Shown here: one piece after another, positions 18,031-37,786 of the stretch
How positions within the stretch are numbered: position 1 is the first letter of the stretch
Layout of the letters: each line of letters opens with the position of its first letter
From: Anthostomella pinea
Lineage: Eukaryota > Ascomycota > Sordariomycetes > Xylariales > Xylariaceae
Reading direction: 5' to 3'
Length of the DNA: 64,000 nt
Assembly: GCA_963556695.1 (NCBI GenBank)
Contig: CAUWAG010000004.1
Span: forward strand, 1-64,000
Program-made: the position numbers and the translations under genes
Notes under the pieces: model-generated
The model's input: the letters and a program-made list of their open reading frames with translations, nothing else
The model's database searches: none
Told to the model about the DNA's origin: nothing

Positions 18031-19827
18031 TCACATCACAAACCCCTCCTCTACAAGCCTATTAATATCCCCGCCAGCAGCCCGCACGGCCTTCAACGCC
18101 GCCTCGCTCATCTTCCGCCCCTTCTCCATGGCCTCTTTCTCGCGGCGCGTCCTCGTCGTGCTAGACCCGCTGGGCGCCACGCCCGCCATCAGCATATCCT
18201 TGTCAGATAGTGTGAAGTTGACAAACTCGATCCCACTGCCGCCCCCACCCATGCCCATTCCTCCACCCCCTCCAATAGACCCAAAACCGCCAGACTTCGA
18301 AGTCGGCGTGCGCGGCCGCCGCTTGCGCACCGAGCTTGAGTGGCTGCGCTGCTGCCCTTGCCCAAGCCCAAGCCCTGGCGGTCGCGCGTGTGGCGTCGGC
18401 GACGTGGATTCCTCGCGGAGGTACGCCCGGCTGCGGTGCAGCTTGCGCGGCGAGGTGAGGGAGCCGCGGTGGCGGGCGCCCGAGGACGGCGCGCGGGGGA
18501 GGGGTCGCCGCTCGCTGTGGCGGTTGTGGTAGTGGTGGGATGAGCGGGGAGTCGCTAGCGAGAAACGCGACGCCTGCCCTGAGAGCTCCGTGTTGTACTC
18601 ATGGGGCAGCTCAGTTTGCTGCTGGTTGTACATCGAAACTTTGAGGGAGGCGTTGTTGCTGTGGGCGCCATTGGTGTAGTGGGTATTGTGGTCTGAATGG
18701 GCTGCATCGCCGTTATGGGTGGTGTCGGCGTGGTGTGTCTCCCACCACCGTGGACTCGGCATGTTGCCGCTGTCGGGGATATACGCTGCCGATGGCGAGG
18801 AAGAGTACAACAGGTTGGCGTCATCGGCGTCCTTGCTGTTGAAGAGACCCTCCATGGACCACTCGGCCGAACTCGTGCTCCGCTGTTGCTTTGGCTGTTG
18901 CTGGTAGGGACTTGTGTACATGTCCAGGGAGGCTATTGGATGTTGATAGAACAAGTCCCTATTGATTATCGGCGTGTTTATTGGCGTGTCGGTATTGTGA
19001 TTTTTGGCCGGGTTGAGGACTGCGGGTGGTGCCAGTATGTCCTTACTGAAGGGGTCGTCTAAGTGGCCGCTCACAAAGCGCATGTTTCTAGACTGGTGTT
19101 CTTCAGGGATTTTACCTGTTGACAGTGGCGATAAGAGCAGATCATTGCTGTCAATTGGCGCCTGCTCCATGTCTAATATGTCCCTATTATAATCGTTGAT
19201 GTCTAAGCTTTCAAGTTTATAATATGGTCTCATATCACCCTGAAATGCACCCATTGCTGTTATATTCGTCTGACCAGGCCTTTGCGGCTTTGGATAATGG
19301 GCAACATGCTGTGTTGTGGCGTGAACCGATTCGCGGAACTGATTGTGCTTGTGTGGATTCAAGAACTTTGCATTGTCGAAAGGTAGGCTTGGAAGTGCTG
19401 TAAGGTTCCCTTTTAGTGATTGTAACGAGATCCCCTCGAGGCGCAGGAGCTCCGAACCAGATACCGAACCAACATTTAATATCGGGTCTGCCGCCAGAGC
19501 TGTAAGTACTGCCGGACCGGAGTTGCTTTGTTCGGCTATCGTAGCATAAGGGGGTATCGTGAGATAATCGCTCGTAGCTGCGCTCTCTCCCTCAACTTCA
19601 AATTGTTTAAAGTGCAGCTCCTGGTTATTAGAGGACGAATTGGTCAAGTTACTGTCGATGGTGTCAAGGAGAATGGATGGACTAGGCGGATTTTCGAGAG
19701 GGTTACCGCCCATTAGTGATGGATCGCCAGAGTCAAAGCTGACAAACTGATCAAAGAAGTTGTCACTTGTTACTGCCAGCTCATTGTTGTCCTGCCGGTA
19801 CGAGAACTGGCTCCCGTCGTTGTCCAT
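18031..19827 (-). CDS. wetA: WetA-type conidial maturation regulator
   Basis: Single-exon, 598 residues (A. nidulans WetA is of similar size). The C-terminal 65-70 residues carry the WetA signature: EFVNFTLSDKDMLMAGVAPS, then a Ser/Thr-Arg stretch, REKEAMEKGRKMSEAALKAV and AAGGD. The rest is low-complexity and rich in Ser, Asn and Pro, with His-rich (about 380-400) and Gly-rich (about 520-535) tracts, as usual for this family. WetA acts late in the BrlA-AbaA-WetA cascade, controlling spore wall maturation and metabolic programming in conidia. Start ATG 19827 begins the full frame. Upstream sequence has three CATTCY AbaA-type sites within 900 bases. It is odd to find it 18 kb from a telomere and 13 kb from abaA. 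Confidence 0.88.
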   Translation of the reverse strand: MDNDGSQFSYRQDNNELAVTSDNFFDQFVSFDSGDPSLMGGNPLENPPSPSILLDTIDSNLTNSSSNNQELHFKQFEVEGESAATSDYLTIPPYATIAEQSNSGPAVLTALAADPILNVGSVSGSELLRLEGISLQSLKGNLTALPSLPFDNAKFLNPHKHNQFRESVHATTQHVAHYPKPQRPGQTNITAMGAFQGDMRPYYKLESLDINDYNRDILDMEQAPIDSNDLLLSPLSTGKIPEEHQSRNMRFVSGHLDDPFSKDILAPPAVLNPAKNHNTDTPINTPIINRDLFYQHPIASLDMYTSPYQQQPKQQRSTSSAEWSMEGLFNSKDADDANLLYSSSPSAAYIPDSGNMPSPRWWETHHADTTHNGDAAHSDHNTHYTNGAHSNNASLKVSMYNQQQTELPHEYNTELSGQASRFSLATPRSSHHYHNRHSERRPLPRAPSSGARHRGSLTSPRKLHRSRAYLREESTSPTPHARPPGLGLGQGQQRSHSSSVRKRRPRTPTSKSGGFGSIGGGGGMGMGGGGSGIEFVNFTLSDKDMLMAGVAPSGSSTTRTRREKEAMEKGRKMSEAALKAVRAAGGDINRLVEEGFVM

Positions 19828-21233
19828 TTCGTAGTGTACCGCTATAGAGGCTCAAATGTCGAGAAAAGGATAAATAAACAACAATTCTATCCTTGATGGG
19901 AGTTGAGTGGAGGGAACCCCATTATGTCCAGGGAAATGTAGGTAGAAACTTGCCAAAAAAAGCTCGAAAGTGGGAAAGATAACCGTTTACCTACTTTCGG
20001 CATATAAACCAATGAAACTTGAGCAGTTCTGCCACGGCAGCAGCAGGTATAAAAACAATGTGAACCACGTTGACGCTGAAAAGGCTACAGATAAATTATG
20101 ACAGGTGCCCGTGGCAACGAGACGAACAATTGGGAGATTGTTTAGAAGAATGTGAATCAAGGCATTGAGTATGAGTCGGGACCAGGAGAAAAGACCATTC
20201 AACGGCCAGTCTTTTAAATATTTCAGCAGCAAAGTATGTCTCCCTCCACGCCGCCAGCAAAGTGGCCGAGTCCACCCACCCACTTGGGGCTTTTGCGCGC
20301 CATGTCGAGACGGCCCTTGAGAAAAGGAGCAAAGATACTTGAAAGAAAGAACCATGGCCGTTCTCGTCGAAGCAGAGTTATAATGAGATGCCTACCATTT
20401 AGCACACCAGATTTCTGCCGGGTGCGTTAGGAGGCAAAAGGCCCCTGGGACGTAAATTTATCTCCCCGAGGAATGGCCCATTATGAGATTCTTTAACAAA
20501 CCAACTCGTGTATTTTGCCGACCAGCCCCGACCAGTATAGCTGCAGGCCTGATTGTCACAGTATTCTAGTGATAGCAGACCGACACCCCTGCTCCTAAAA
20601 AGGAATTTTGTACATATAAATTTGTGCAAGTTTATCCCTTGCTTGTGTTTCACCAGTGGCAACTAGGGAGAGCAAAGGCCATGCCCCTAAAAATGACTTG
20701 TCGACCATTCCTCGATTGTCAGCGACAGAAATGGGACAGGAGGGGAAAGTATAAAAAGCAAATATGTAAGTGGCGTACCTACGGCATGACCTGTGTAAGC
20801 AAAGGGGTAAGTGGAAGCATCAGAAAATTCCTCCAAGGACGTGCTCTTGTCTAGGGATCAATCGAAGAACATAACCTAGCACGGAAGCATTACCACTTGT
20901 TTCTGCTTTGCTTTTTTTTTTTTTCATATGTCGATGTCACTCTATCTTGAACGCCGCCTTTGGCATTCGAAACACTAATAGAGATGGGAAGACCGGGAGG
21001 CGCGGAAGTTTCACTTTACGTGTAGCCTTTCCTCGAAGTGTACCTTTGTTCTCTATTAATAGCTGTGTTTCACCTCATCTAAGCGAACGCAGTGGTAAGC
21101 TTACACTTGGGTACAATATTACAGGTCATCTCGCTTAGCAGCACAGGCCTACATTCCAGACCCATAGCTCGCGAAACGATTTTCTTTGTCTGCTTCTTTT
21201 TTTATAAGAAAGCCATGACAACAGTTACCGTAT
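19828..21233 (-). promoter_or_regulatory. wetA upstream region with AbaA- and BrlA-type motifs
   Basis: No convincing gene lies here. For wetA (minus strand) the region holds CATTCT at 20152-20147 and the CATTCC type at 20475-20470 and 20706-20711. It also holds one BrlA-type element, (C/A)(G/A)AGGG(G/A), as CAAGGGA at 20641-20635. AbaA is known to bind CATTCY. Three sites in 0.9 kb exceeds the roughly one per kilobase expected by chance only slightly, so this is suggestive. A poly-T run occurs at 20912-20924. Confidence 0.4.
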
Positions 21234-22157
21234 ATGTTTCTAGATTGCCATTCTTCACCGAATATGTTTTGCGGCAACCCCATCCACTGCCAGGGAAACC
21301 ATGGTGAACCTCATCAGATTATCAATACTACCCAATCATCCAGCCACACATTCCAGCCACAGTGCTTCAACCATCTCGTGTCTACCCCATTCATACAAGG
21401 CAATACACATACAGAACTTCTTTTCTCCTCTCGGCCATACGCACAGTTCTACGACAATGTCAATCAGACATTCAACGAAGCTCGGAAACAACTGGATGTT
21501 ATTGCCCAAGATATCCAGTGGGGTACGCAAGACCACGAGAGACTCCAGCATGATAACGAGAGACTCCAACATGACAACGAGAGGCTCCAGCGTGACAAGG
21601 AGAGACTCCAGCATGACAACGAGATATTCCAGCATGACAACCGCCGGTTGGATTCAACTGTGGATCTTCTCGAAGGCAGATTAGCATATGCCAACATCCA
21701 CATCAAACAACTCAAGTCGGAAAAGAAAAGCCTCTCTAAAGAACTGCGACTCTTTCGGGAAAATCAGGACCTAGTAAAGGTGGCTGGCTATATATCCTCG
21801 CAGTCCAAACCAAGTTCTTTGCCCGTCCTCTGCCAACTCATGCAGATGCATCTCGACCTCTACCCTAGTTATAGCCGGGATCAAGAATGTTCTGACGTGC
21901 AAGGGCCTGTGGCTGGTCAATGTTCGATATGCCATGAGCCAGGGCGCCGGATGATTCGCCTACCATGCTCCGGGAAGCATGAGTTTGGGGGGGCGTGTCT
22001 CAGAGCATGGGTGATGACGGATGAGAATAAAACGTGCCCACTATGCAGGGAGGCTATTCCGTCAGACTGGTTGTCGAGCCTTAAGTCTGGTGTTCTTATC
22101 ACGAACGAGGTTATATTAGACTCGTGTGACTTAGAACGCGCGCCAATCGTCAGCTGA
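21234..22157 (+). CDS. RING-finger protein with repeat-built coiled coil
   Basis: 307 residues, one exon. A RING domain at residues 230-271 shows CSIC, LPC, KHEFGGAC, a Leu-x-x-Trp and CPLC. The usual second His position is Gly (HEFGGAC), a form common in fungal RING proteins. RING domains usually make E3 ubiquitin ligases. Before it, residues about 102-136 are five tandem 7-residue units (ERLQHDN type), giving a heptad coiled coil encoded by a 21-nt DNA repeat, followed by more predicted coil. It is probably a self-associating cytosolic or nuclear E3. The substrate is unknown. The exact start is uncertain; a later in-frame ATG is possible. Confidence 0.7.
   Translation: MFLDCHSSPNMFCGNPIHCQGNHGEPHQIINTTQSSSHTFQPQCFNHLVSTPFIQGNTHTELLFSSRPYAQFYDNVNQTFNEARKQLDVIAQDIQWGTQDHERLQHDNERLQHDNERLQRDKERLQHDNEIFQHDNRRLDSTVDLLEGRLAYANIHIKQLKSEKKSLSKELRLFRENQDLVKVAGYISSQSKPSSLPVLCQLMQMHLDLYPSYSRDQECSDVQGPVAGQCSICHEPGRRMIRLPCSGKHEFGGACLRAWVMTDENKTCPLCREAIPSDWLSSLKSGVLITNEVILDSCDLERAPIVS
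21537..21641. repeat. 21-nt coding minisatellite in RING gene
   Basis: Five tandem 21-nt units of the GAGAGACTCCAGCATGACAAC type. Each encodes one heptad (ERLQHDN), so copy-number change would lengthen or shorten the coiled coil without a frameshift. Confidence 0.9.
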
Positions 22158-22360
22158 ACTCCTTGAACCTCATGGACACATTGAGAAGAGAGACAATAAA
22201 AAGGCACGAATGAAGCCATAAGACTATGTCAGGTCGGGATATTTTCAATTAATTTATAATCAGTTTGAAAATTTCTACCTGCCATCCTTCTAGATGCTTC
22301 ACGGAGCTCTGTCCCACATCGATCAAACGGGGCGTCCCCTTCACCCCTTTACCCCTTTTG

Positions 22361-22545
22361 TTGGATCCATACGATTCCAGCCTGCAAACCATCTATACAG
22401 GACCCACATATATGATTAGATAAGAGATTAGATACCAGATTGTGAGGATATTTAGCCAGACCTTCAAGTCCAGCTAGACCTCACAATCCAACCCATCAGC
22501 AACATCATGACTTTGACCTATACTCGAGTATTATGATTGATCGGT
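22361..22545 (-). repeat. Dispersed repeat R1, copy 1
   Basis: Reverse-complement match of roughly 75-80 per cent by eye to 31156-31349. It shares blocks such as AATCATAATACTCGA, GACCTCACAATC and CTCTTATCTAATCATATAT. Non-coding. Differences are mostly transitions. It lies between genes, with no duplications I can define. Confidence 0.65.
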
Positions 22546-23478
22546 CAAGCCTGTTCCAACACCTTCACCCACCCCTTTACCCTCCACCCACCCCTACCTT
22601 TTCCCCGCGGGACGTTTCCACGTCAAGCAGATCGCCCAAGTCCCCTGCCTTGCTGCGTCAGCATTATCAGCATTACCCACGCCTAGCTGCAGCAAGACCC
22701 GTTCGAGGGACTTTTATCGACAATTTTCTGCATGTCCGGTTTATCCGGCGGCAAAGGGGGTATATGGTTAATGGCCTAATCCCGCGGGCAAAATGGCGTC
22801 CATGTATACTACCACCATTAGATCCATCTCTCAGCAGACGGGTCCGAAGCTTGTTTCTAAGACAAATGGGCCTTACTATTGCAACCGAAAATAGTTACAG
22901 CTCTTGATCTTCTTCCTGGTTATTCGGAACTTCCGGCTGGTCATGATCGGACCTCACGACCTCGGCGATCGACCGCGGCCTGTCCTCCGCAAGAGCTTCC
23001 AGCGAACCCTCTTTCACATGTGGGACGGCCGCCTCCTGTAGGACCCGAACTTAAACTCGAGCGCCTTAGCTCTATGGTCGGATTAATGATTCGATGAGTT
23101 GAAGCCGGCTCTGGCAGTAAACTTCTCCTAGTTAATCTAGAAACGATCAGCTGGTATCGTATGGGTTTATGCGTGGAATGAAGGAGCGAAATCTTGAATA
23201 GGAGTGAGTACCCTGGGCTTTGTGTCGAAGCATTCGTAGAGCTTGATGAGGGCCGCCATGTCGCGCATGGTGATTTGATAGGGGACCGAGCTTTAGATGC
23301 CATCTTCTGTTAAATCAGCAGGCGCAGTGTCAAATGTACGTATATGGAAGCATGAGTGTGGGTGTGGTGGGCGTTGGAGGAGAAGTTGACTCGGGGAGTG
23401 GGACGGCCCGATACGCAATCTGCCAAGTGAGCTTAGAGCACGTCTGAACCTCTCGGATTTGCAGAGAATGAGCAATAA
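22546..23478. other. Intergenic with a short coding relic
   Basis: Mostly non-coding. On the minus strand at about 23285-23185 there is a protein-like stretch (ITMRDMAALIKLYECFDTKP) ending in a stop, possibly the last exon of a lost gene. The other frames are overlapping and unconvincing. Confidence 0.3.
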
Positions 23479-23994
23479 CTATGGCAAATAGTATCGGTTG
23501 TTTCCCTTGCCCTCTACGTAGATGCAGTTATGGTCTGACATAAGCTCCGAAGAACCTGTTGCTGCTGGCCTAGGTACGGCAGGTATGAAACCCGGCACTG
23601 TACCATTTGCACGGAATGGATTGGTTGCCCGCATCAACAATGAATTTATATAGGTGAACATACGCCTTGCGCTCTCTAACCAAAATCCGATTCGAGTGAC
23701 CCACACACGTTTACACATTTCGTGAACACAATCTTCCAGCTCCGTTTGCTTTCTGTCAGGATTATTCTCATTCAATAGTCTATTCAATGCCCTCCGTCTC
23801 AGCAGTCCTCGAGAATCGCACCTTGGCGATGCCATCCCGACGGCTTGCGCCCATTGGCTGGACAGGAGGGTGCACAAAAGACCCGAAGCCATGCCGCATT
23901 GTTCCGTGAGAAGGTATGTTCGACCCTTGGCTCGGCAGTGGCGGGAGTAGCATGCATAAGAAATTTGCTTAGGCTGCACATGCACAACACGCAT
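23479..23994 (-). CDS. Hypothetical protein, doubtful
   Basis: 171-residue open frame, no recognised domain, no signal peptide. The middle (about residues 68-115, with LLRRRALNRLLNENN and ELEDCVHEMCKRVW) reads like a helical protein, but there is no independent support. The frame may be chance or a relic. Confidence 0.25.
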   Translation of the reverse strand: MRVVHVQPKQISYACYSRHCRAKGRTYLLTEQCGMASGLLCTLLSSQWAQAVGMASPRCDSRGLLRRRALNRLLNENNPDRKQTELEDCVHEMCKRVWVTRIGFWLESARRMFTYINSLLMRATNPFRANGTVPGFIPAVPRPAATGSSELMSDHNCIYVEGKGNNRYYLP

Positions 23995-24504
23995 AACACT
24001 AACACTTTTTATGCTGTGGTGGGGCAGGAGTTGTGGATTCCAAACGCTCGCTCATCCATCCCATCACGGCTACTCACGGTTCCCATCACGCCTCCCATCA
24101 CAGTTCCCATCACGCCTCCCATCACGCCAGGAAAGCATGCACAGCCGGGAAGAGCTTTGTGGGCGCCCCAAGTGGACGACTCAGAATGGCAGGATTGCTG
24201 AAATCATTCTTGTGCATTGCTGACGGACCACTCGTTCCTCTCGCGTCTGCGTATAGACGAGTACACTACCGCTTCACAGTCCATATCATTGTAGTATCGA
24301 GCGGAGCCCTTAGTGTCACATTTAACCGTAGGATCCCTTCCACAACAAACACTCTAATCATCGAAATTTCTTCTACCGGCGGTCTTCACTACCGAGGACC
24401 TGGTCACGTGGTATTAGTCTTCATTGTTTTCCCATCCGCCTACTTTCTAACCGTCCAAGGTATCGGTGATGGTAGAAACCGTGACTCGAACGAAACGCGT
24501 GGAA

Positions 24505-25067
24505 TTGATTGATGATTGATTGTATTTATCGTGGGTGCAGTCCCTCCACAGGGCAAACCACGCCTTCCAGAGCCATTGCATCGCAAGGTTGTAGAGGTGT
24601 CAGTCTAGATACATTCAGATCCGCGCACGAGCCTATCCTCGCTGTAGCGGTACCAACCTGGAGTGACCAGATGGTTTTAGTCAATATCCAAGCACGATTC
24701 CGTCAGAAAAACCTCCTGTCCAGTGACAAAACGACCCAGTGGACCTCAGTCCTCTGGTGTACACATCGTTCTAGTAGCCGTTCGATATATGTCGCATTGG
24801 TGGATGAAGTAGGTATTTGTTATCTGTTGGCGAGAGAAACCATAAGGGGAAAAACCTTGCAGGAATGGGTATTATGGAGACAAGCTGCTTGGCTATCGGG
24901 CTCTGCGATAAGGGGCCTCTCCACTGTCGTGTGCTGGTTATCGACTCGCACAAGCCGGGTCAGAAGGGGGCCATAGCAGGATTCAAACCCACTTGTTCTC
25001 GTCGCCCACCGCACAAACGAGTAACGAGAACACAACCAGGCGCATTTGACCATTGCGCCATACGGCC
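24505..25067 (-). mobile_element. SINE copy 2
   Basis: 563 bp, minus orientation, flanked by the 14-bp duplication CGAAACGCGTGGAA (24491-24504 and 25068-25081). It belongs to the (CAAT)-tailed subfamily, with a variant tail reading TTTATCGTGGGTGCAGTCC on this strand. The tRNA-like head at the right end has a small internal duplication (ACGAGTAACGAGAAC) and a box B changed to GGTTTGAATCC. Confidence 0.92.
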
Positions 25068-25479: not shown

Positions 25480-25660
25480 CTTATCTGTGTTGCTTTGGGG
25501 GACAACATTGATCAGTGTAGCACACACTCTTACCAAAAACAACTATTTTTCTTGGCGCCCCGCTGTTAGGGCGCAACCTCTATATCTGCACTAAAACAGG
25601 CATTTATTTCAGTACCTGACTATCCTTGCCAAGGCGCAGAAAATTTTTCTCACAAGCTGG

Positions 25661-27238
25661 ATGGCACCCCTTCACGATAGGCCCCCAAATACGCCAGTGG
25701 CCGTCCCAAAGACGACTACTGGCGGCGTGCTCAAATCCCCGGTCCCTAAAAGAACATATGGCCCGGCAACCCCAAGCAAGCTCCGCCAGGCACTGCTCGA
25801 CGACATCAACAGCAGCCCGTCACAAGTCTCTGAGGCTGACTTCACCATTGTTTCCCCTCTGAAAGGAAAATCCCGAAATATTAATACTAGCAGCATCATT
25901 GATATGGAAGTACCTCAATCAAACGAAATCTCTACAGACCAAGCCATTGGAGGCGATACAGGGAACAAGGTCTCTTCCTCAAAGTGCCAGGACCAAGTAG
26001 CCAAAATACTGGCTAAAGACAAGCATCTCTATGAAGCCAGGATGACAATGTTTCAAGAGTGTGCTGCAGCAGTCGATAAGACACTGGAAAAAGCTGGAAC
26101 CGAACTATACTCTCATGCCAAGGAGTTCAGCGCTTTCTTCTCCAAATGCCTGAACGAGTGGCTGGAAACCCGAGATCTGCCCAAAAGAAAGACCACTCCT
26201 GGCGGGATAGGGATAGGGAAGCCCACCATGACCTTCGCCCAAGCTGTCTCCTCTGGCCAACGACAGCATCCATGGACAGTCAACACTACCATGAAGAAAA
26301 CACAGCCTGGCGCCCTCATCACTGCCAACCAACTGAAGAAGAAGCAGGATGATCTCCGGGTCTTTGTCCGCATGGATAATAGCCACCTAGAGCCTTATGG
26401 AATCAAGTCTACACTGAACAGAAGACTTAAGCTCCACCCTCAGGAGCTTAGAGAAGTGACACGATGTCCTTCTGGTTTTACCTTACACCCAAGGGACAAG
26501 CCAACTCAGGCTAAGCTTCTGGCTTTCCAAGAAGAAATTGCCGACATTCTCAAGGCACAAAAGATTGAGACCCACACAGTCTGGCATCATTACAAGGTCA
26601 ATGGATGCCCAAGAAAGGTCATCAGTGCAGAAGGGTTCACAATCGATATTACTGACACTGTTGTTGCCGATGAAGTTGAAGCCCAAACAGGCGACAGACC
26701 TCTGAGGTGCATACTCTCAAAGAACACGATTGATTCTGATCCAGAAACTACATGGATAATCTCTCTGCCCAGTGCAGCAAGGAAACCATTCACGCTTTTT
26801 GCCCACTCAATGACCTCAAGGCATATTCAACACACCCCCAAGGTTCACCAGTGTGCAAGCTGCTTCAGATACCATGGTAGGAATTACCGATGCGAAAAGC
26901 AAGTATGTGCACACTGCGCCAACACAGTACACCAGGGAGAGTGCGAAAAACCAATCCCAAAGTGTGTCAACTGCAAAGGACCTCATGCTGCCAACTTCGA
27001 CAAATGCCCTGCCCGCCCCAAGGTTGTGAAAGGTACCATCCATAAGCACACATGGGAGCAAATCCAGGAAATAAGGCTAGCCGGAGAAAGAGCCAGATCC
27101 AAGGCCTTCAACGAAGCAGGCAGAAACCAAGCTGGGTCAACACCTAGCAATAATAACAAAGACACCACAATGCAAATCGACACAACAGATACAACTCATC
27201 CCAGAGATGCCGATACCATTGTTGTCAGTCAATGTTAG
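25661..27238 (+). CDS. LINE ORF1, gag-like zinc-knuckle protein
   Basis: 525 residues. The N-terminal third is basic and Pro/Ser-rich and the central part is unrecognised. Near the C-terminus (about residues 395-455) are three Cys/His clusters: CASCFRYHGRNYRC, CAHCANTVHQGEC and CVNCKGPHAANFDKC. ORF1 proteins of this class bind element RNA and package it into the ribonucleoprotein that carries ORF2 product. The start is the first ATG after the 5' UTR, matched in copies C and F. The stop TAG overlaps the ORF2 start (ATGTTAG). Confidence 0.93.
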   Translation: MAPLHDRPPNTPVAVPKTTTGGVLKSPVPKRTYGPATPSKLRQALLDDINSSPSQVSEADFTIVSPLKGKSRNINTSSIIDMEVPQSNEISTDQAIGGDTGNKVSSSKCQDQVAKILAKDKHLYEARMTMFQECAAAVDKTLEKAGTELYSHAKEFSAFFSKCLNEWLETRDLPKRKTTPGGIGIGKPTMTFAQAVSSGQRQHPWTVNTTMKKTQPGALITANQLKKKQDDLRVFVRMDNSHLEPYGIKSTLNRRLKLHPQELREVTRCPSGFTLHPRDKPTQAKLLAFQEEIADILKAQKIETHTVWHHYKVNGCPRKVISAEGFTIDITDTVVADEVEAQTGDRPLRCILSKNTIDSDPETTWIISLPSAARKPFTLFAHSMTSRHIQHTPKVHQCASCFRYHGRNYRCEKQVCAHCANTVHQGECEKPIPKCVNCKGPHAANFDKCPARPKVVKGTIHKHTWEQIQEIRLAGERARSKAFNEAGRNQAGSTPSNNNKDTTMQIDTTDTTHPRDADTIVVSQC

Positions 27239-30200
27239 GTACATCAAACGAAACACATCGACACGGGCATCTAGTCATCCATTCTGTGAATACAGCAGGG
27301 GGACAAAAGAGTGCAGGCCCTACAGAGTTAGCCATCAACCTGGCTGACTATAAAGGAGAACAAGCAGACATCATTCTGATGCAAGAGCCCTGGGTTGGCA
27401 TACCACCAGGCAGGAGAATGGGAGTAAAGACACACCCCAATTACGATATATACTCCCCAGTGGATTCCTGGGACAGCGACAGTACACGGCCCAGATCTCT
27501 CATCTATGTGAGAAAATACCTTCAAGCGGATCAACTTCGGCCCTATGCTACACGAGACATCACCTGGGTCAAGGTACAAGGCATTACATTTGCCAGTGTC
27601 TACCGGCCATGTGACAACCCACAGGAAGTGGATGACATTCTGGAAGTATGGACTCCACCTTTTGGCTGCGTTATAACTGGAGATTTCAATGCTGGCGACA
27701 CATCCTGGGACTCAAGCAATCCAGGATATCATGGTGGTACTATACTTGCACAAACTATGGCAGACCACGGACTGGATCTGATTTCTGAACCAGATGTCCC
27801 GACACATGATGACGGAAATGTACTAGATCTGGTGTTCTCTGATGTCCCCATGGCTGAAGCCTCAGTCAATGATGCACTTCAGTGCACCTCAGATCATGAG
27901 ACATTACGAATAGTCATTCCAATTCAGGGAGATCTGGACCGAGTACCCAAGGCCAATCATTGGATAGTACCGGACGATAAACTACAGGAGCTGGCAGATA
28001 ATGTCCAAACCAGGATTCATGAACTCCCCCGGCTGGGTGTATCCCCTGGCCAGGTGGACACCTTTACACAAAGCCTGATCAACATGATCCAAGGCTGTAT
28101 CAGGACAGTGGGCAAGAGGCCCCGTCAATCTAGGCCCACTGCTTGGTGGAATGATGACTGCAAAGCAGCTGTTCAGACATACAGGGCCCTTTCCAAACAG
28201 ACTACAAGCCAAGAAGGACGGAATTCAGCCCGACGGGAATTTCGCGGCGTGGTTCGGAAAGCTAGGAGAGAGTACTGGCAGACTCTAATCAATTCAGCAA
28301 CTGAGCCAAAGGACCTATACAGAATCGTCTCTTGGCACAAGTTATCAGCAGGAATGCGTTCCCCTCCAATCATCATAGGAGACCAAATATTCGAGTCACA
28401 AGAGAGCAAGGCAAATGCATTACGCTCAGCCACGCTTGAACGAAGTACCTCAGACAACGATATCATCGACCCCTGGTCCGCTCAGATCATACAACCCAAG
28501 CCACACATCCCCCTTGAATACCACGTCGGACTGGAAGAGGCTGAAGGGTGCACTTTAGGAACCAAGAGCAACTCCCCGGGAGTAGATACCCTCACAGTAC
28601 GGATTCTGAAAGCTTGCTGGCCAGTCATTGGTGAACATATCAGAGCCCTTTTCCAGACCTGCCTACTGATTGGACACCACCCTAAACCATTCAAAGTAGC
28701 TGAGGTGGTGATGATCCCAAAACCAGGAAAGAAAGACTACTCCAATCCCAGGGCCTACAGACCAATATCGCTACTGTCATGTCTTGGCAAGGGCCTAGAA
28801 CGACTCATTGCGAAAAGAATTACCTGGTTTGTTGTCAAACTTGGAATTCTAGCCCCACAACATTTTGGAGCTCTACCAAAGCGCTCTGCCACTGACCTGG
28901 TAGCTGCACTCATACACGATATTGAGCAGGCCCTTGACCAAGGCCTCGTTGCAACGGTAGTCACATCAGATGTGAAAGGGGCCTTTGATGCTGCCCTAAT
29001 GGGACGGCTGGTGGTTCGCATGAGAGAACAGGGCTGGCCAGGCTTTCTCATAAGATGGGTCCAGTCGTTCATGTCCGAGCGGTCCGCAAGAGTTCGGTTT
29101 GAAGGTACTGTGACCGATATAAAAGCTCTCACTTGTGGGCTCCCACAAGGCTCACCAGTCTCTCCAATCCTCTACATGCTGTATACAGAGCCAATCTGTG
29201 CCCGACTTGGCATGAAAAGAAGACGCTTTGGATATGCAGATGATCTAGCAACACTCTGCATTGGAAAGAACCTTAAAGAAACAGCTGCAGAGGCTTCTGA
29301 AAACCTTCATTTGCTCAACCAATGGGGACATAACAATGCTATTGAATTTGATCCCGACAAAACCGAGATCATGCACTTCTCACGGAAAAAGAACTCAGAC
29401 AATCCCCCAGTTTGCCACGGAACAATGAACAAAACAGCTAAGCATTCCATGCGATGGCTAGGTGTCCTTCTGGATAGGAAACTAAACTTCAAAGACCATG
29501 TTTCTCACTGGGCCAAGAAAGCTAGTAGGGTAGCAAATCACCTTCGAGGACTATGCAACACAGTCAAAGGACTTCCAGTAAAGTCAACCAAGAGGGCTGT
29601 GAAAGCTTGTGTTATTCCTATTCTCACACATGGCCTGGAGGCCTGGTACCCAGGAATCGAGAAAACTGGGAGCTTAGGTGAGACATCAGCATGTCGCATT
29701 AAGGGGCTTCTTGGAACAATAGATGCCGTACTACGAACGGCGATCAGGGCTATCTTGCCAGTCTGGAAAACACACCCTGGACATATCTTACACTTTGAAT
29801 CGCAGATTCCCCCAGCAGGAGTTCTTGCAGAGTCAATAAGACGACGTCACGGCCTCCGACTAGGACGAATAGATCAGAGACACCCTCTGGTTGGCAGGCT
29901 CCAAATACAAGCTCGCAAGGATCCAACAAGGCTACAAAGAAGCTTCCAGCTAGTCCCTGACTTCCAGAGACCAATACTTACCAGGCCATCATGGAGGAAG
30001 CGCCCAATCCGCAAAGACAAAGACAAAGAAACAGAGCTCTTCAAGCAATGGTTACAAGAGAGAAACGTGAACACTGACCTTGTCATCTACTCAGATGGAT
30101 CACAGTTGGATGACCAAGGCACAATCCGCACTGGATGGGGTTATACCATCAGGAAAGGCGGCACTACACAAGAAGTATACCGGGGAAGGGGCAGACTTCT

Positions 30201-30924
30201 ACAAGCAGAAGTAGTAGATGCTGAAGTCCATGGTGCTCTCCAAGGTCTTGCAGCAGCCAGGGCAATTGGACACGGAAAACAGCTATATGTCTGCCTGGAC
30301 AACACGTCAGTGGTAGATGGGCTCAATGGGACTCCACCCGAGACATCACAAAACATTTTTCTACGATTTCAAGAACTTGCCACAGCACACACTCCTGGAG
30401 TGACCGTCAAATGGATTCCTGGACACAGAGATATTGATGGCAACGAAGCTGCCGACACACTAGCAAAAGAGGGTGCCATGCTGGAAACAGACACAACAAA
30501 TCTTCCTACAATCTCTTGGGTCAAGAGAGATCTCAAAAGACAGGGCAAGAAAGAGTTCAACCAATGGTGGAAAGACCAATCAGAATCTAGGTATCAAGAA
30601 GTATACTCACATGCAGTAACTGAAGGAGACCTTATATCTTTTAAGAGGAGTACTTTACACAGACTTCTAGCGGCCAGATCTGGACATGGCGACTTTGCCA
30701 GATACCATGAACGCTTTGGGCACACAGATTCAAATGATCACTGCAGCTGTGGTGAGAAGAAAACACCACAACACATTTTCTTTTGTAAGAGGCTGGGGAA
30801 AAATCGGCTACTGCCTAGGCATTCGCCTAGGGCAGCTTGTTTACAATACTTAGGGGAGAGGAGCACAGAATGGGCAAAATTCGTGGAGAAGAGCAAGTTC
30901 TTTTCAACAATCTGCCCCCGATAG
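27232..30924 (+). CDS. LINE ORF2, endonuclease-reverse transcriptase-RNase H
   Basis: 1,230 residues, uninterrupted. The apurinic-type endonuclease spans about residues 1-230 (catalytic E52 in QEPW, GDFNAGD, SDHETLR). The reverse transcriptase spans about 430-720 (PKPGKKDYSNPRAYRPIS, motif A DVKGAFD, motif B GLPQGSP, YADD at about 668). RNase H spans about 945-1080 (YSDGS, AEVHGAL, CLDNTS, PGHRDIDGN). A terminal Cys/His motif lies near 1170. The enzyme nicks chromosomal DNA and primes cDNA synthesis from the LINE 3' end. It begins at an ATG inside the last codons of ORF1, implying stop-restart or frameshift translation. Confidence 0.95.
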   Translation: MLGTSNETHRHGHLVIHSVNTAGGQKSAGPTELAINLADYKGEQADIILMQEPWVGIPPGRRMGVKTHPNYDIYSPVDSWDSDSTRPRSLIYVRKYLQADQLRPYATRDITWVKVQGITFASVYRPCDNPQEVDDILEVWTPPFGCVITGDFNAGDTSWDSSNPGYHGGTILAQTMADHGLDLISEPDVPTHDDGNVLDLVFSDVPMAEASVNDALQCTSDHETLRIVIPIQGDLDRVPKANHWIVPDDKLQELADNVQTRIHELPRLGVSPGQVDTFTQSLINMIQGCIRTVGKRPRQSRPTAWWNDDCKAAVQTYRALSKQTTSQEGRNSARREFRGVVRKARREYWQTLINSATEPKDLYRIVSWHKLSAGMRSPPIIIGDQIFESQESKANALRSATLERSTSDNDIIDPWSAQIIQPKPHIPLEYHVGLEEAEGCTLGTKSNSPGVDTLTVRILKACWPVIGEHIRALFQTCLLIGHHPKPFKVAEVVMIPKPGKKDYSNPRAYRPISLLSCLGKGLERLIAKRITWFVVKLGILAPQHFGALPKRSATDLVAALIHDIEQALDQGLVATVVTSDVKGAFDAALMGRLVVRMREQGWPGFLIRWVQSFMSERSARVRFEGTVTDIKALTCGLPQGSPVSPILYMLYTEPICARLGMKRRRFGYADDLATLCIGKNLKETAAEASENLHLLNQWGHNNAIEFDPDKTEIMHFSRKKNSDNPPVCHGTMNKTAKHSMRWLGVLLDRKLNFKDHVSHWAKKASRVANHLRGLCNTVKGLPVKSTKRAVKACVIPILTHGLEAWYPGIEKTGSLGETSACRIKGLLGTIDAVLRTAIRAILPVWKTHPGHILHFESQIPPAGVLAESIRRRHGLRLGRIDQRHPLVGRLQIQARKDPTRLQRSFQLVPDFQRPILTRPSWRKRPIRKDKDKETELFKQWLQERNVNTDLVIYSDGSQLDDQGTIRTGWGYTIRKGGTTQEVYRGRGRLLQAEVVDAEVHGALQGLAAARAIGHGKQLYVCLDNTSVVDGLNGTPPETSQNIFLRFQELATAHTPGVTVKWIPGHRDIDGNEAADTLAKEGAMLETDTTNLPTISWVKRDLKRQGKKEFNQWWKDQSESRYQEVYSHAVTEGDLISFKRSTLHRLLAARSGHGDFARYHERFGHTDSNDHCSCGEKKTPQHIFFCKRLGKNRLLPRHSPRAACLQYLGERSTEWAKFVEKSKFFSTICPR

Positions 30925-31155
30925 ATAGCCTTCCTTGAAGGACCAGATGGATGACCCCAAGGTCATACCGCCGCAACAACGGGGATGGGCCCGTGAGCGG
31001 GACTGACTGTACTTATTATCTTGAGACCTCCACAACCCTGCGATGCAGAGGCTCTGGGAGGCGTGGTTTGCACTACTGAGGAGCTACCCCCACGTTAAAT
31101 ACAAAACAAACAAACAAAACAAACAAACATTGATCAGTGTAGGAACAGGCGTGAT

Positions 31156-31349
31156 CAATCAATCATAATACTCGAATATTGGGTCAAGGTCGTGATGTTG
31201 GAGATAGATGGATTGGGAAGTCCAGCTGGACTCGAAGGTCTGGCTGAGCGACCTCACAATCCGATATTTAATCTCTTATCTAATCATATATATGGGTCCC
31301 GGTATGGATGGTTTGAAGGTTGGAACCGCATGCATCCAACAATTTGTAC
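31156..31349 (+). repeat. Dispersed repeat R1, copy 2
   Basis: Inverted partner of 22361-22545, starting 14 bases after the LINE D duplication. The bases to about 31640 after it are unique and non-coding as far as I can see. Confidence 0.65.
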
Positions 31350-31787
31350 CTTTAACTGCTGTCTACAGATGCGTTGGATTAAAGGTACGCCTAGAGGGCA
31401 CCTTGACAGTTAGACAACGGAACCTAGTTGTTCCGTCCCGATCCAGCCCCCTCTGGCAAAAAGCTGCCACGGTCGCACAGGGACACTTCAAGGACACAGA
31501 ATACACACATACACCTCAACCTCACGATTGGCTCAAATCTAACAAAATGCTGCATCAGCCGCGCATCAGCCACGGATCGTCTGCCATCATCCGTGTTTGC
31601 CCTCTTAATTCTAACCCTTATCCCCATTAAATACGCCACGGAGGGGAGCGGAATAGTAGCCTATGAGAACGAAGAGCGCCCTCGAAATCCTTACCAGGCT
31701 TCTGTTCAGACACGTTAGTAGATGTCATGCTTTGGTCGGTCTTGGTCTCGTACAGTCCCGGGACTGATCGCCTTCGTGATGACGTTC

Positions 31788-32268
31788 TTGGGCAAGCAAC
31801 GAAGCCATCGGAATGACACTCTTTGTATGCGCTCAGATCTCCGGGTTGATCATGCGTAGGGAAAAAGGTGCGCGGGAAATACTGATATCGTTTTGTGATA
31901 TCCTCTCTGTCTATGGTCGAGATGAAGTCGCGGGATGCTTTTAAATGCTCAATAGTAGGCCATCTCTTGTGGTCCACCTTGTTGCATCGTTTGGCTAGGT
32001 GACAATGTGTCGCTGCCTTTCAAAATACGTTGCTTAAAGCTCTGGCGTCATAAACACCGGGAGTAATCCTAAGTGCATCAAACGGACTATACTCCAGCAT
32101 GATGGGGATGATGGGGATGATGGGGATGATGGGGATGGTGGGAATGATGGGGATGATGGGGATGGTGGGGATGATGGGGATGATGGGGATGGTGGGGATG
32201 ATGGGAATGGGTGGGGTGGGTGGCGTCGGTGGGGTTAGTCTACCGGTGGAAGCCATGGCCGGCATCAT
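31788..32268 (-). pseudogene. J-domain/zinc-finger gene fragment
   Basis: Closely similar to the first about 115 residues of the intact gene at 5843: YSPFDALRITPGVYDARALS, a frameshift, then DHKRWPTIEHLKASRDFIST and CHSDGFVACP. The HPD-containing stretch is damaged (bases 31980-32020) and similarity stops at about 31788, before the fingers proper. Upstream of the conserved ATG (32100) the GATGGGGAT repeat is in frame, and the frame opens at 32268. It would add an N-terminus of about 56 residues of Pro-Ile repeats. Confidence 0.85.
32101..32215. repeat. GATGGGGAT minisatellite, third array
   Basis: About thirteen 9-base units directly upstream of the J-domain fragment, the same position as the array at 5844. 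It is more regular than that one and in frame with the downstream J-domain start. Confidence 0.9.
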
Positions 32269-32575
32269 GGCCTATGAAGGCAGTGACGCCAGGCTTGGGT
32301 AAGTGATGCTGCAGCCGTGGATGGATAGATGAGTGAGAGGGTAGGCTGCACGGCAGGCCTTTCAGTCACGGCATCATGCTTGCCACATATAACGACGCTT
32401 CTCATTTCCATACACCGGTGTAGCTGGTGTGATTCTGCTGGTTTCAAGGGTTCGCGGTTGCCAACCGTATGCACGAGCCAGATGATCTATCAATTCTCTC
32501 ACCGGGATCGCCTGCCACTTCCCACACGAGAGAGCCAGTAAGGAATGAACCAGAGTTTCAAGCTGTAGTTATGTA
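32220..32575. other. Intergenic, no gene seen
   Basis: Contains the putative promoter of the J-domain fragment and the 3' flank of abaA. No supported ORF or element. Confidence 0.5.
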
Positions 32576-34816
32576 CTAAAGGAGAGGCTGCCCTAGCCGT
32601 GGGTTCTTGTTGCTACGGTCCATACTGTGTCGTACCTCAGTATCTCCGTCCTCTTCTTCGTATGTCCTCTTGTATCCCTGGCTTGGCGCCTGTATGTACA
32701 ATGGCGGGAGCCTCGCCCTGTGGTCAGCCATGCCTGCGCTATCAGCCATGCTCAGGCTCGCCTCGTTGTTGGCGTATCCAGCACACCACGGGGCATCTAG
32801 ATTCCAGGTCGGGCTGGAAACATTGGTCCACGGCATATCAGGGCTGATGTTTGGAATGTACCAATCTGGAAAGGTAGTGGTAAGGCTGCTACCACCACTT
32901 GCCATACCGTGCATGCCTACATGGTCGCGCGTGTTGTAGGGCGTGAGGCTTGGTAGGCCGTATAGGAGCTCATTGCTACCGGTCACGGTAGTAAAATCGA
33001 CATTATCAAAGCTCGCTGTGTGGCTGTTGTCATTGGCGTAGGCGCGCGGCGCTGGGGTATCCAAGTTGGCGAATTTATCGAGGATAGGTTGGCCTTCCTG
33101 CTTCTGTGTGGCGGCACAGGTCGTGGTCATGGTATATTGACTCTCGTGAAACCGAGGCATGTATTGATCCGGTAAGGCAGAACTGTCTGCCGACATGGTT
33201 GACGAGCGAGAGAGATAAGCATGCCGCTGATGGTATTGTGACGATGGATCTAATCTGGTGAGGAACTGCCATTTGGTGCCCGGCACCACGGTTTTGGCCT
33301 TGCCTTTCCCAGACCGATGCTCGTGGGTAGGGACAAAACTCCACAAGATCACGGCCCGCCGTGTCCAGGTCCCTTCGGCTATTTCATCACCGTTGTTCCG
33401 AGCAGACCATACTTCCTGGTACATGGCAACCTTAGATAGAAGCTCCATGACGCTTGGGGCCTTGTCAACCAGTGGCATGGGAGGATAAGTACCCGGGCTT
33501 GCCCCCTGTGACTTGTGGACTGGGAGCCCATGTTCCTTCTCGCGTTCTTCAGTGCTGCACGGGGCTAGTTTGCCGAACGTCTCTGCCCAATTGGTTGCTG
33601 GGAATGGCACACGAATCATGTGATGTTGACCGCCAACGGTAAAGCCATACGGCTCGTTGCCATAGCCGGCGGCGTCTCCAGGTGCAAAGGACTCCACCAG
33701 CTCATTATGGTTCCAGAAGCCCATTTCAAGCCCAGAGCTTTGCAGCTCTTTTGGCTTTGCGATTGACGTCACAGATTTCCAGCTATGATGATGAAGGGAG
33801 GGCTGACAGATGGCGAGGTCGATCACGCCTCGGAGCTCGGAGCCGTTCGGGAATATAGAGCCCGAATGCATATCTAGGGCGATTTCGAAATGGAAAGTAT
33901 CACAAGGGCCCACAACATAGCGTGAAGTCCGCTCGTCAGCTAACCGTATGTCGTTCAGGGCACCCATGAGTCGATTGCTTAGCTCTGGAAAGCTGACGGC
34001 CCATTTGCGAGATATCTCTTCGATGGATGACGACGGTTTTTGCGAAAGTGCCCGCGTGTAGTCGTGTAGTACTATTGCAGGATTGTTGTTGCCGTGCTCC
34101 TTTTTAGCGTTAATCCAAGGTGGCGAGACGAAAATCAAGCATTGCTTTGGTCGGAGGAACACATCTTCGTCTGCACCTAATAGCATGGAGAAGTAGTCGT
34201 AGTTTGGAAGCTCGTTAGGGAGGATGCCATCGGCAATAGCGGTGAGGATCTTGTTGGATTTTAAGTCGTTCGTGTCCTGATCGGTTGGGATAGCTTGATT
34301 GACAGGCAAGATAAAATGACCTAAGAAAAGATCAGTCTAATATCTATGGAATAAGGGACGATATGCTTACCAGTGACCAAGGTGGCAAGGTAAGGCTTTA
34401 AGACCTGGATATGGCTCGAAACTCGCTTTCGCCCATTTTGTGTTAGAGGCGATCGTCTTTCACGGCCATCTTCTCCTGCATTGCTATCCAAGATCCATTC
34501 TTTGTTATAGGGGATGTCAATCTTTATTCCACGTAGCAAGATGTATTTCGCAATGAGCATATTGCGGCCGTACGTAATAGACGGGTTGGTGCTCGAAGCA
34601 ATCCGTTTTCTACCCATTGGCTGGATCAAAAGGAGGGCTTTAACGATAGTTAGTTGCTGCAAATAACTACTAGCAGGTAACATAGAAGCGGAGGAACTTA
34701 CCATCGAAAAATGCATCTTGTAGCTGACGTGGCCAAGCTAGTGATTCTTTTCCTAGATATCTCTGGAACTGTCCGATAGAATAGAGGGGATTCTTAGTCT
34801 CCTGATTATTAGCCAT
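32576..34816 (-). CDS. abaA: AbaA/TEC1-type TEA-domain transcription factor
   Basis: Three exons: 34816-34702, 34637-34371 and 34320-32576. The introns are 64 nt (GTAAGT...AAAG, CTAAC branch) and 50 nt (GTAAGC...TTAG). The joined frame is 708 residues. The TEA/ATTS domain lies at about residues 28-119: WPRQLQDAFFDALLLIQPMG, YGRNMLIAKYI, then the recognition helix RKRVSSHIQVLK. About 30 residues (78-107) are inserted between helices 2 and 3; shorter insertions occur in other filamentous-fungal homologues. The remainder has a conserved-looking central region and a low-complexity tail with an acidic EEEDGD. AbaA binds CATTCY and drives phialide differentiation, activating brlA and wetA. It is transcribed divergently from brlA. 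Confidence 0.78.
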
Positions 34817-35114
34817 GCTTGGTTCATACCTACTTTACATGATCTAGATATCAGGCAGTAGACGTGCCTTCTTATAGAGGTCTTGTTATCAATCATCCAA
34901 GGCTAAGGAACAGGCCTAGAAGGGTCAGTGCTGAGACAAGTGGAAATCGCAAATCATTTTCTTACTTCGTTAGCGGTGCAGGAGCGGAAGTGGCAGATTA
35001 AGAAACGGCTGACGTTTCATTCGCTTCTAACAAGTCTCCCTTGGAAGAAGCGTTGTGATCAGTCACTTTCCCTCGGGCTATTGTCTCTATGATCAATCAC
35101 TTTGCTTTAAACCT

Positions 35115-35275
35115 GAGACAGCCTGCACAGACCGTCGCACATGATAAGCTGATACATCCTAGTAAGAGAAGGATCTAAGTAGAGGGAACACTGTAAGAGG
35201 AAGGGCCTCTAGCTGTATATGGCTTCCCGTTCTCTCCTTTTCCTCCCTAGTCTCCAGATCTCCAGGGACAGTGCA
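35115..35275 (+). mobile_element. Diverged MITE relic
   Basis: Alignable by eye to the 220-bp MITE at 13362. It has GCCTGCACAGACC, then CACATGA.AAG..GATAC.TCC, AGAAGGATCT and a CTCTCC..TTCCTCCCTAGTCT block. The terminal repeats are not preserved. It lies 0.3-0.46 kb upstream of abaA. Confidence 0.6.
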
Positions 35276-35696
35276 TATACACCCAATGAGTACCGGTACA
35301 GCGATTTCGCAAAGAAGTCCGAGTCGACAAACTTCTGTATATGACAACTCTGTATGCTTAGATATGCTAGATGCAAGCGAGATCAGAATATCCAGGTGGT
35401 CAATATTGTTCTTCTGCCTTTTCTCCTCGAGCGTGCAGGAAATAAAGGTATGTCTTCTAGGTGGGTCAGATGCCCTGTGCGTCTCTGCCCGTCTGGAGAT
35501 ATTCCTACACGCTGGGCAACTAGGTATCTTAGATCTAAATTTAGGTGACAAGGACCTATCACATGAACAACCTTGCTTGCTTGTAAAATTTGGCCATGGG
35601 TGGCGCCGTGCATGAAGCCATAATGGGAGCAAGGGTTACTTTGGTGGTTAGTTATCCCTCTATCTCTTTCTTTCGTCCACGTGTTAATGTCATGTT

Positions 35697-35889
35697 GGAA
35701 TGTATCAAAGCTTGTGCCAGCCATTTTCAGGCCCCTGGTAATATTAATGTTTTAGTTGGGGAATGTGAAACAAGGAATGTAACGGCTAAACCATCTGCAG
35801 TTGACATGTGAGAGGACCGGAATGGAATTTTTAGCGACAAGAATAAACCTATTCTGGAATGTTGAGCTTGCAATCCTAATAAGCATTCC
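35697..35889. promoter_or_regulatory. Cluster of six CATTCC (TEA/AbaA) sites
   Basis: GGAATG at 35697, 35760, 35774, 35819 and 35856, and CATTCC at 35884. All six are the exact TEA-domain consensus, where about 0.1 would be expected in 193 bases. The cluster lies 0.88 kb from the abaA ATG and 1.09 kb from the brlA ATG, so it could serve auto-regulation of abaA and feedback on brlA. Binding is inferred from the known AbaA consensus CATTCY. Confidence 0.65.
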
Positions 35890-36977
35890 GAACATTTCGA
35901 GCCGGGAAGTTCGGTCCATGCCATAGTGAACATATCCCGGTACTTAGGTTTCAAGGCTCCAAACCGAGAGGCAAACTGAAGCTAGATATTATCTGTTGTA
36001 CTAAAAATAGGGAGGCTAGGGGGGTAGGAAGAAGCACAATATTACATCTGGCTTTTAAACAATGCAATGGTTTGGAATTAGTTAATCTGTGATATATTAC
36101 TTTGGCAAGCTACTTGTTCTTCGCTACTGCTTTGATCTATATTCCTTGTCATATTCGAATAATCAATCCTGTCATGTTTTCCTTACGCCTGGCGACGCAG
36201 GTTATTGAGCAACTACTTGCGTCCGGCCTGACATTTCCACGTGTTTCAAGAAATCTTAGTGGCTAAAACTAGTGTCAGATGTGGCAGACCGTCTTCGTGA
36301 CAATGTATTATTAAATGGCGCGCAAGCCACCGCGGCGTTCAGGAGGTGGCAGTGCACCAACAAGGCCAATAGGGCATTTTTAGGCCACTTAGCCTACAGC
36401 AGGATTTTCACAGACACAAGAACAATACGGATTACACTAGAATATACGTTTTCACCCATCTAAAATCCCTTACGCACTGTTTGACAAGTATCACTTATCT
36501 TAGGAGCAAAGGACAGTACTAATATTACAGATTGCATGTACGTTACAGGCCACTTTGGTGAGCTTTGTTGGGTACATGTTTCATTCTTAATATTAAAGCA
36601 TAGATACCGAGAGACGGATAATGTTATGCTAATTAATTAAAGCAAGGGAGCATTAAGATCGGATTGACAAACCTTGCGCGCTTATTATTCTTCTTGCCGA
36701 AGGCGCGCTTGAATTCATAGTAAGGAGACACAAGTGGCGCCCGAAGATACCTGTCATATCTTGGCTCTCCCACTTGAAACCGACTACTTTCTCGACAAAG
36801 AATAGCGAAAATCCTAGATCATCTCATCCAGTGAATATATAATAACGCATTATTATTATTTTTTATCTCACAAATTCTACCATCTACTGTTTTATCCTAG
36901 TAGATATCTAGCCTTTACCATAAGATCACACCCTTTGATGGAGAACCGTTGCTTAAGGCCTGCTCTAACTTACGACG

Positions 36978-37786
36978 ATGGCATCTAATCACGACATCAC
37001 GAGAACAAGCCTAGACGATGACTTTACCTTTGAATCGTCTTACGACCTATTTATACAGACATTGGACCTTTCTCCGCCAACATGGACAGCACTTACGCTC
37101 AATCATGCTTTCGATGTTAGCACAGTATATCCCAACTATATGAATAATGGCGCATATTCAAGTTGGGAAAGCAGTATACAGCCCACTACGATCGACTTCG
37201 CTCACACAATAGCGACTTCTGTGAACCCGACTACCTATGGCAAATCCCCTGAAATGCCTAGCCCTCGGCCTTTCCGTCATGGCGCGCTCCTGGATCCGAT
37301 CATCCTGCCATGGCCCCCGCACAGTCGCGACATACCTTTGGCCACCTCTACGTTGTCTGGCAGCGAGCCAATAGCATACTCTGGACGGATCCCATATACT
37401 CCTGTCGAACACATGAGTGAAATCCCTGTGGCCACTTTTAGATGCGACAGGCCTCAGTGCACCGACCGTCCCCCATACCGGAGGCGGGAGCATCTTTCAA
37501 GACACATACGAACGTAAGAATTACTTGAGGTGAATTCAATATATAGCGGCTAACATGAGATATTAGACACCATCACCCCCAAGCCATGACATGGTCCTGT
37601 CCATTCTGCCATAAGTCTTTCAACCGTAAGGAGAACTATCATCAACATCTCAAACGGCACACTTCGAAGAATGGTCGCACAAAGTTCTATCCCAATGCCA
37701 CGGAACTATATAAAAAAGAAATAAGCAAAACCAAACGAAGGCGCATCTCAGAGAGGCACGGCGGTCAGAATGGCGCCAGAGGATAA
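36978..37786 (+). CDS. brlA: BrlA-like C2H2 conidiation regulator
   Basis: Two exons, 36978-37513 and 37567-37786, with a 53-nt intron (GTAAGA, GGCTAACATG branch, ATTAG); 251 residues. Two C-terminal C2H2 fingers: the first at C156/C161/H172/H176 (CDRPQC...YRRREHLSRH), the second at C190/C193/H206/H210 (CPFCHKSFNRKENYHQHLKRH). The intron splits the finger linker. After the fingers come a Phe-Tyr-Pro segment and a basic KTKRRR, as in BrlA, where FNRQDN-like residues and a basic tail follow. The N-terminal 150 residues are Ser/Thr/Pro-rich and not conserved. BrlA starts asexual sporulation and activates abaA. It is shorter than A. nidulans BrlA (about 430 residues), and a generic C2H2 factor remains possible. 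Confidence 0.72.

Follow-up and report, generated by a model that had tools for sequence, protein, structure and literature searches.

Asexual spore formation has AbaA and WetA among its core regulators, each usually encoded by one gene. Here we describe a chromosome end of the fungus Anthostomella pinea that carries, in its outermost 35 kb, a second, diverged gene for each of them, which we call abaA-2 and wetA-2. The stretch that we analyzed, hereafter the window, comprises the initial 64 kb of contig C3 (4,287,689 bases) in an assembly of 53.7 Mb in 16 contigs, and it forms the left, telomeric end of that contig. Because an array of (CCCTAA)n telomere repeats, to which no strand applies, occupies positions 1-202, we took the window to be the end of a chromosome. 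Among described systems, passages of PMC5307856 give two copies each of abaA and wetA for Aspergillus oryzae and A. carbonarius, with no mention of linkage or telomeres, and describe BrlA as confined to Eurotiales. In PMC8779605, BrlA is treated as a conidiation regulator in Metarhizium, a Sordariomycete; the closest BrlA-like protein of Fusarium is described as unrelated to conidiation (PMC3769392), and in Metarhizium AbaA is reported to bind the wetA promoter (PMC8557821). The A. pinea genome paper (PMC10763133) concerns isolate F5, with a genome of 53.7 Mb, from a lichen thallus; a term search of its main text gave no ‘conidi-’ word, and its section 5 describes vegetative mycelium. Titles and opening lines of abstracts in the open-licence literature yielded nothing about a clade of AbaA paralogues or about an abaA-wetA pair at a telomere. 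No paper was found there on abaA in Xylariales or on wetA in connection with conidiation in Xylaria, and on duplicated abaA and wetA that literature gave the Aspergillus paper alone. The clade to which AbaA-2 belongs thus seems undescribed in that literature.

The original prediction for this DNA had placed homologues of BrlA, AbaA and WetA together in one block near the telomere. The AbaA and WetA homologues and the chromosome end were borne out, and the BrlA homologue was not. In our judgment it is somewhat probable that abaA-2 and wetA-2 arose separately, came to lie close to the telomere, and act there as a modified side branch of the AbaA-WetA relay, with no relocated cascade.

The gene abaA-2 lies on the reverse strand in three exons (34816-34702, 34637-34371 and 34320-32576) that encode a protein of 708 amino acids (P0001). 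The spliced product was identical at 708 of 708 residues to the public A. pinea model Uu.00g095480, and its TEA domain, encoded in exons 1-2, scored 48.9 bits against PF01285 (cut-off 25.1), so that the spliced TEA factor predicted at 32.6-34.8 kb was recovered in full. Structures of TEAD proteins matched residues 27-75 (best E 5.6e-5), and the stretch VSSHIQVL was kept. The 708-codon frame contained no stops, the introns were intact, and the exons, read by eye, matched the intron positions of abaA-1, the copy found by own-genome search at C2:1.426 Mb. A search of the genome with the TEA domain returned two stretches, abaA-2 and abaA-1. For comparison with AbaA at large, a protein search with AbaA-2 gave 147 matches, the best 120 of which were listed. 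Near-invariant columns (≥95%) were defined on 107 of these 120 rows, A. pinea AbaA-1 included, after leaving out eight AbaA-2 rows and five long-branch rows (P0106, P0108, P0110, P0112 and P0117). AbaA-2 departed at 13 of 45 such columns in the TEA domain and at 22 of 102 in the body of the protein, versus 0 of 45 and 1 of 102 for AbaA-1. The idea that abaA-2 is the orthologous, conserved AbaA copy was rejected; that copy is abaA-1 on C2, and the window gene is a paralogue.

Phylogenies were built from 48 rows (47 of the 120 listed plus one joined A. pinea piece), from 27 of the 120 under a mixture model, and from all 120. These trees contained AbaA rows alone, without other TEA families, and AbaA-2 was nested among the AbaA proteins of Xylariales. 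In the 48-row tree it grouped with short AbaA copies of Xylaria, Nemania and another member of the Xylariaceae (SH-like approximate likelihood ratio test, SH-aLRT, 100), and in the 27-row tree it joined five short copies of the Xylaria/Nemania type with support of 100/99. Eight rows of the 120-row tree, two of them from A. pinea, made up a clade of short AbaA proteins. Forcing AbaA-2 beside A. pinea AbaA-1 cost 49 log units and was rejected by the approximately unbiased test (p-AU 0.00017). A 3-residue insertion in the TEA domain before YGRN/NGRN was found in all six AbaA-2 rows aligned and in none of five AbaA-1 rows; the same split (6/6 versus 0/5) held for the absence of ~100 N-terminal residues, a count that depends on the gene models. 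Locus tags showed AbaA-1 and AbaA-2 to be both present in Xylaria sp. FL0064 and in one X. arbuscula genome. By the trees, either AbaA-2 would be older than the divergence from Xylaria/Nemania or it would have come by transfer, whereas WetA-2 (see below) would not be older than that divergence. If AbaA-2 had been acquired horizontally from a fungus akin to Xylaria, wetA-2 being a duplicate made locally next to it, this would suit both the grouping with Xylaria/Nemania and the patchy occurrence of the clade (8 of the 120 listed rows). We regard such a transfer as unlikely: in the 27-row tree the window copy did not nest within the five Xylaria-type copies but stood as their sister on its own long branch, and vertical descent with losses explains the pattern equally well.

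The reverse-strand gene wetA-2 (18031-19827) was read as an open frame of 598 codons, free of stops, encoding 598 amino acids. Scoring of the 7997 candidate proteins with the most shared words gave at least 103 homologues at E ≤0.001; those that carry names are almost entirely from Xylariales, and some are labelled wetA. Precomputed PF28419 matches were present on P0121 and on 103 of the 103 listed WetA rows, in agreement with the WetA C-terminal signature predicted at 18-19.8 kb; WetA-2 itself matched nothing in the copies of the Pfam and NCBIfam libraries that we used. We therefore based the WetA assignment on the PF28419 rows of the protein search together with the WetA tree. WetA-2 resembled WetA along its full length, including the C-terminal signature. 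Its best other match in the genome was wetA-1 (C3:1,095,758-1,097,824, at 1.096 Mb), and the own-genome search also revealed a relic of the wetA C-terminus at C9:733 kb. In a tree of 35 rows (34 of the 103 listed WetA proteins plus wetA-1), WetA-2 and A. pinea WetA-1 were each other's closest rows (SH-aLRT 99); the end branches measured 0.34 for WetA-2 and 0.15 for WetA-1. By this 35-row tree, WetA-2 is an A. pinea-only duplicate of wetA-1. DNA similarity between the two genes extended over the gene plus ~670 bp upstream (19828-20498 in the window, reverse strand, homologous to the wetA-1 promoter); therefore, a DNA segment that included the promoter was copied. DNA comparison also defined a downstream flank at 17771-18030 (reverse strand). 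The match to the C9 relic has its edge at position 17771, and so have two 68-bp repeats found elsewhere: the flank edge at 17771-17838 recurs alone at C9:686752 and C7:262392 (87%), and thus may represent a terminus of some small mobile element.

We compared WetA-2 and WetA-1 over 594 codons and obtained a synonymous divergence (dS) of 0.72, a nonsynonymous divergence (dN) of 0.21 and a dN/dS of 0.30, with 0.30, 0.31 and 0.27 in the successive thirds of the gene. A copy that had been unconstrained since its duplication would be expected to give a dN/dS for the pair near or above 0.5; the lower observed value suggests that WetA-2 was constrained for at least part of its history. At the 82 near-invariant WetA columns (conserved in ≥95% of 102 homologues), WetA-2 departed at 20 and WetA-1 at one, and we rejected wetA-2 as the conserved genomic copy of WetA. 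The C-terminal signature of WetA-2 was recognizable, with four of 25 near-invariant columns changed. Since three Nemania WetA proteins depart at three or four columns of this signature, the C-terminal changes alone are no proof that function was lost. Repeat-induced point mutation (RIP) was considered as a cause of the divergence and rejected, as the dinucleotide indices of wetA-2 and abaA-2 were near the values for the whole window. A single RIP index was raised, in the C9 wetA relic only. Of 326 transitions between the two wetA genes, 217 had the A/T state in wetA-2, most commonly at CpG and not at CpA.

The main rival to a functioning side branch is decay in a silent region: both genes would be dying, unexpressed duplicates in a silenced, transposon-rich end that have not yet accumulated stop codons. 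We hold this to be possible though doubtful. The subtelomeric setting fits it, for self-repeats of ≥150 bp, many of them pieces of one retrotransposon, cover 38.7% of the window; so do the changed start of wetA-2, its 20 altered columns out of 82, and the fragmentary, broken or TEA-less state of the other AbaA-type loci and the C9 wetA copy. Decay is less easily reconciled with stop-free frames of 598 and 708 codons, with a dN/dS of 0.27-0.32 in each third of wetA-2, with the intact introns of abaA-2, and with the persistence of the AbaA-2 clade across several Xylariaceae. With both frames open, neither gene is an obvious relic.

Several findings weigh against the side-branch reading itself. 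The dN/dS averages both lineages, and WetA-2 is the faster one. The ancestral start of wetA-2 has been lost, the triplet aligned with the ATG of WetA-1 being TGA, and Met10 of WetA-1 is the residue matched by the first ATG in frame. Five other AbaA-type loci (one on C4, two each on C5 and C16) are fragmentary, broken or TEA-less, which indicates that decay is common in this genome. The highest raw scores of AbaA-2 were to ordinary AbaA proteins (Durotheca, 475 bits), the short Xylaria/Nemania copies reaching 386 bits at best, and the tree program flagged long branches in the 48-row and 27-row trees. Long-branch attraction of AbaA-2 is possible on these data; the shared 3-residue TEA insertion speaks against it. 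Lastly, CATTCY, the AbaA-type site, was not above chance in four wetA/abaA promoters (three sites each, expected ~1.3, P ~0.15).

The five loci just mentioned were found, besides abaA-1 and the window gene, by a search with the AbaA-2 body. The C4 fragment lies 18 kb from the contig start, is 88% identical to the window over 1.25 kb, is frame-broken, and by eye is flanked by transposon sequence. Three TEA-less copies split between frames (L034 at C5:3.56 Mb, L035 at C5:3.86 Mb and L036 at C16:6.33 Mb) are mutually close (dS 0.02-0.07), and the fifth locus is a 69-residue piece at C16:6.38 Mb. By eye, L034 and L035 both sit inside a shared segment with HET-like genes. Counting the window gene, four of six AbaA-type loci are within 60 kb of a contig end.

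The third gene of the predicted block, at 36978-37513 and 37567-37786 on the forward strand, encodes a protein of 251 amino acids with two C2H2 fingers. The gene is sound, with two exons and a clean intron (37514-37566) between the fingers. It had been read as BrlA-like because its fingers align to BrlA, with 33% identity over 80 amino acids to the A. nidulans sequence, in which the fingers are of the C-X4-C type. Closer relatives were found within the genome. The finger region retrieved 25 stretches at E ≤1, two of them self-matches and 23 elsewhere (13 of the 23 at E ≤0.001). Of ten relatives fetched, eight share a C-X2-C second finger and a tail, [FY][HY][PH]xA, that is absent from BrlA, and some of these eight contain stop codons; the other two we took by eye to be Msn2-like and TFIIIA-like. 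The closest relative compared as a spliced protein (L038, C16:5.02 Mb) was 44% identical over 88 amino acids and has the same tail. Judged by these likenesses, the gene belongs to a family present in many copies in A. pinea, where it has at least eight relatives, either copies or relics. The BrlA query found 26 stretches in the genome, none of them in the window, although the intron between the fingers lowers the score of the window gene; the best stretch has fingers of the CreA type. Against 5.8 billion proteins, the 251-residue protein had no match at E ≤0.01, and the 80 candidates with shared words were uninformative as to family. We concluded that the gene is not BrlA, given its closer own-genome relatives, C-X2-C second finger in place of the paired C-X4-C of BrlA, different tail, and position outside the BrlA-search stretches. 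As far as can be read from sequence, it would stand outside the AbaA-WetA relay. Contig C9 carries four relatives of this gene along with the wetA relic, all inside a span of 0.45 Mb (0.54-0.99 Mb).

The original prediction offered two explanations for its block, a whole pathway gathered at a chromosome end or a second, accessory set exchangeable as a unit. The first does not hold, as BrlA is missing from the block and abaA-1 on C2 and wetA-1 at 1.096 Mb on C3, the canonical genes, are unlinked. Of the second, the idea of an accessory set fits abaA-2 and wetA-2, which exist in addition to the canonical genes, and does not fit the third gene; exchange as a unit was not supported. It had been foreseen that a 36978 protein outside the BrlA clade, a 32576 protein outside the AbaA/TEC1 clade, or canonical copies elsewhere with those of the block being unexpressed relics would refute the prediction. 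This was borne out in part: the 36978 protein is outside BrlA and there are canonical copies, and the 32576 protein is inside AbaA. That the block is a full accessory BrlA-AbaA-WetA cassette, mobile as one piece, appears highly improbable to us. Three regulator-type genes do lie inside 20 kb, and the 33% match of the third gene to BrlA is in its favor. However, that gene is closer to the local two-finger family, and it is absent from the BrlA-search stretches, even allowing for the handicap of its intron. The trees also assign abaA-2 and wetA-2 different ages, AbaA-2 grouping with Xylaria/Nemania and WetA-2 being confined to A. pinea, and each of the fragments on other contigs (that of abaA on C4, that of wetA on C9) aligns to the window over one gene alone, once repeats are set aside. 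On these last two grounds we rejected transfer of all three genes as a unit.

What, then, of the linkage between the remaining two genes? Simple arithmetic puts the chance that six AbaA-type loci and two extra WetA-type loci would come within 16 kb of each other in 53.7 Mb at ~0.7%, and this rises to several percent if both types favor chromosome ends; the linkage is suggestive at most. One CATTCY site occurs at an aligned place in the promoters of wetA-1 and wetA-2. For BrlA-type sites, only the region upstream of abaA-2 went above chance (four sites, expected 1.04, P 0.024); we did not count this excess because it was one of ten tests. Under the side-branch reading, the TEA domain of AbaA-2 is predicted to bind AbaA-type (CATTCY) sites, and AbaA-2 would compete with AbaA-1, or retune it, at genes of late conidiation. 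One of these would be wetA-2, whose promoter was copied from one to which AbaA would bind. WetA-2, altered at many near-invariant positions, would be a weakened or specialized WetA. The two genes would probably have met through separate copy events into a permissive, repeat-rich chromosome end. A bolder version, which we consider rather unlikely, is that the chromosome end acts as a nursery for a second AbaA-to-WetA relay, put together from parts of separate birth: an accessory AbaA of an old Xylariaceae paralogue clade and a young wetA duplicate with an AbaA-responsive promoter. If so, A. pinea would gain an alternative spore programme that can be switched, under telomere position control.

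Between wetA-2 and abaA-2 lies a long interspersed nuclear element (LINE) retrotransposon with long open frames (25534-31118, forward strand), including an open frame at 25595-27238 and endonuclease, reverse transcriptase and RNase H domains within 27157-30924. A 5'-truncated piece of LINE (203-1480, forward strand) adjoins the telomere array and is 100% and 99% identical to the copy at 29835-31118 over the two stretches compared. The start of contig C4 is also telomere-capped, and the same LINE family is present 7 kb in. In the interior of contig C2 (8.9 Mb), two telomere arrays on opposite strands stand end to end (G000:C2:4266029-4266398), which suggests either that two chromosome ends have fused or that the join was made in assembly. 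Other frames in the window include one between wetA-2 and the LINE (21219-22157, forward strand) that matched zf-RING_2 above its cut-off and has a repeated RLQHDNE-type stretch; one at 51533-52024 (reverse strand) with a weak MADS-box match (SRF-TF, E 0.0062), under the Pfam cut-off; and one of 604 amino acids at 4140-5954 (reverse strand) with numerous C-x2-C motifs and a DnaJ-like match under the cut-off, a portion of which recurs at 31789-32125 (91%).

A diverged AbaA clade in some Xylariaceae, together with a telomeric AbaA/WetA pair, would offer a natural case of a core developmental relay that was duplicated and retuned, and recognizing it corrects the attractive but mistaken reading of a linked BrlA-AbaA-WetA cascade. 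Compared with AbaA of A. nidulans, Fusarium graminearum and Metarhizium robertsii, AbaA-2 has the TEA domain, a similar body and the VSSHIQVL stretch that those proteins also carry. In contrast to the AbaA proteins of Xylariales, it lacks the ~100-residue N-terminus, carries the 3-residue insertion and the 13 changed columns of 45 in its TEA domain, and stands as a second copy alongside a conserved AbaA-1. WetA-2 is like WetA along its length and in its C-terminal signature, and differs in being a second copy that has lost the ancestral start and changed at 20 of 82 near-invariant columns. The zinc-finger neighbor shares with BrlA the possession of two C2H2 fingers and differs from it in finger 2 (C-X2-C versus C-X4-C) and in its tail. 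Like A. oryzae and A. carbonarius, as presented in PMC5307856, A. pinea has both regulators twice in its genome, and those Eurotiales have brlA as well.

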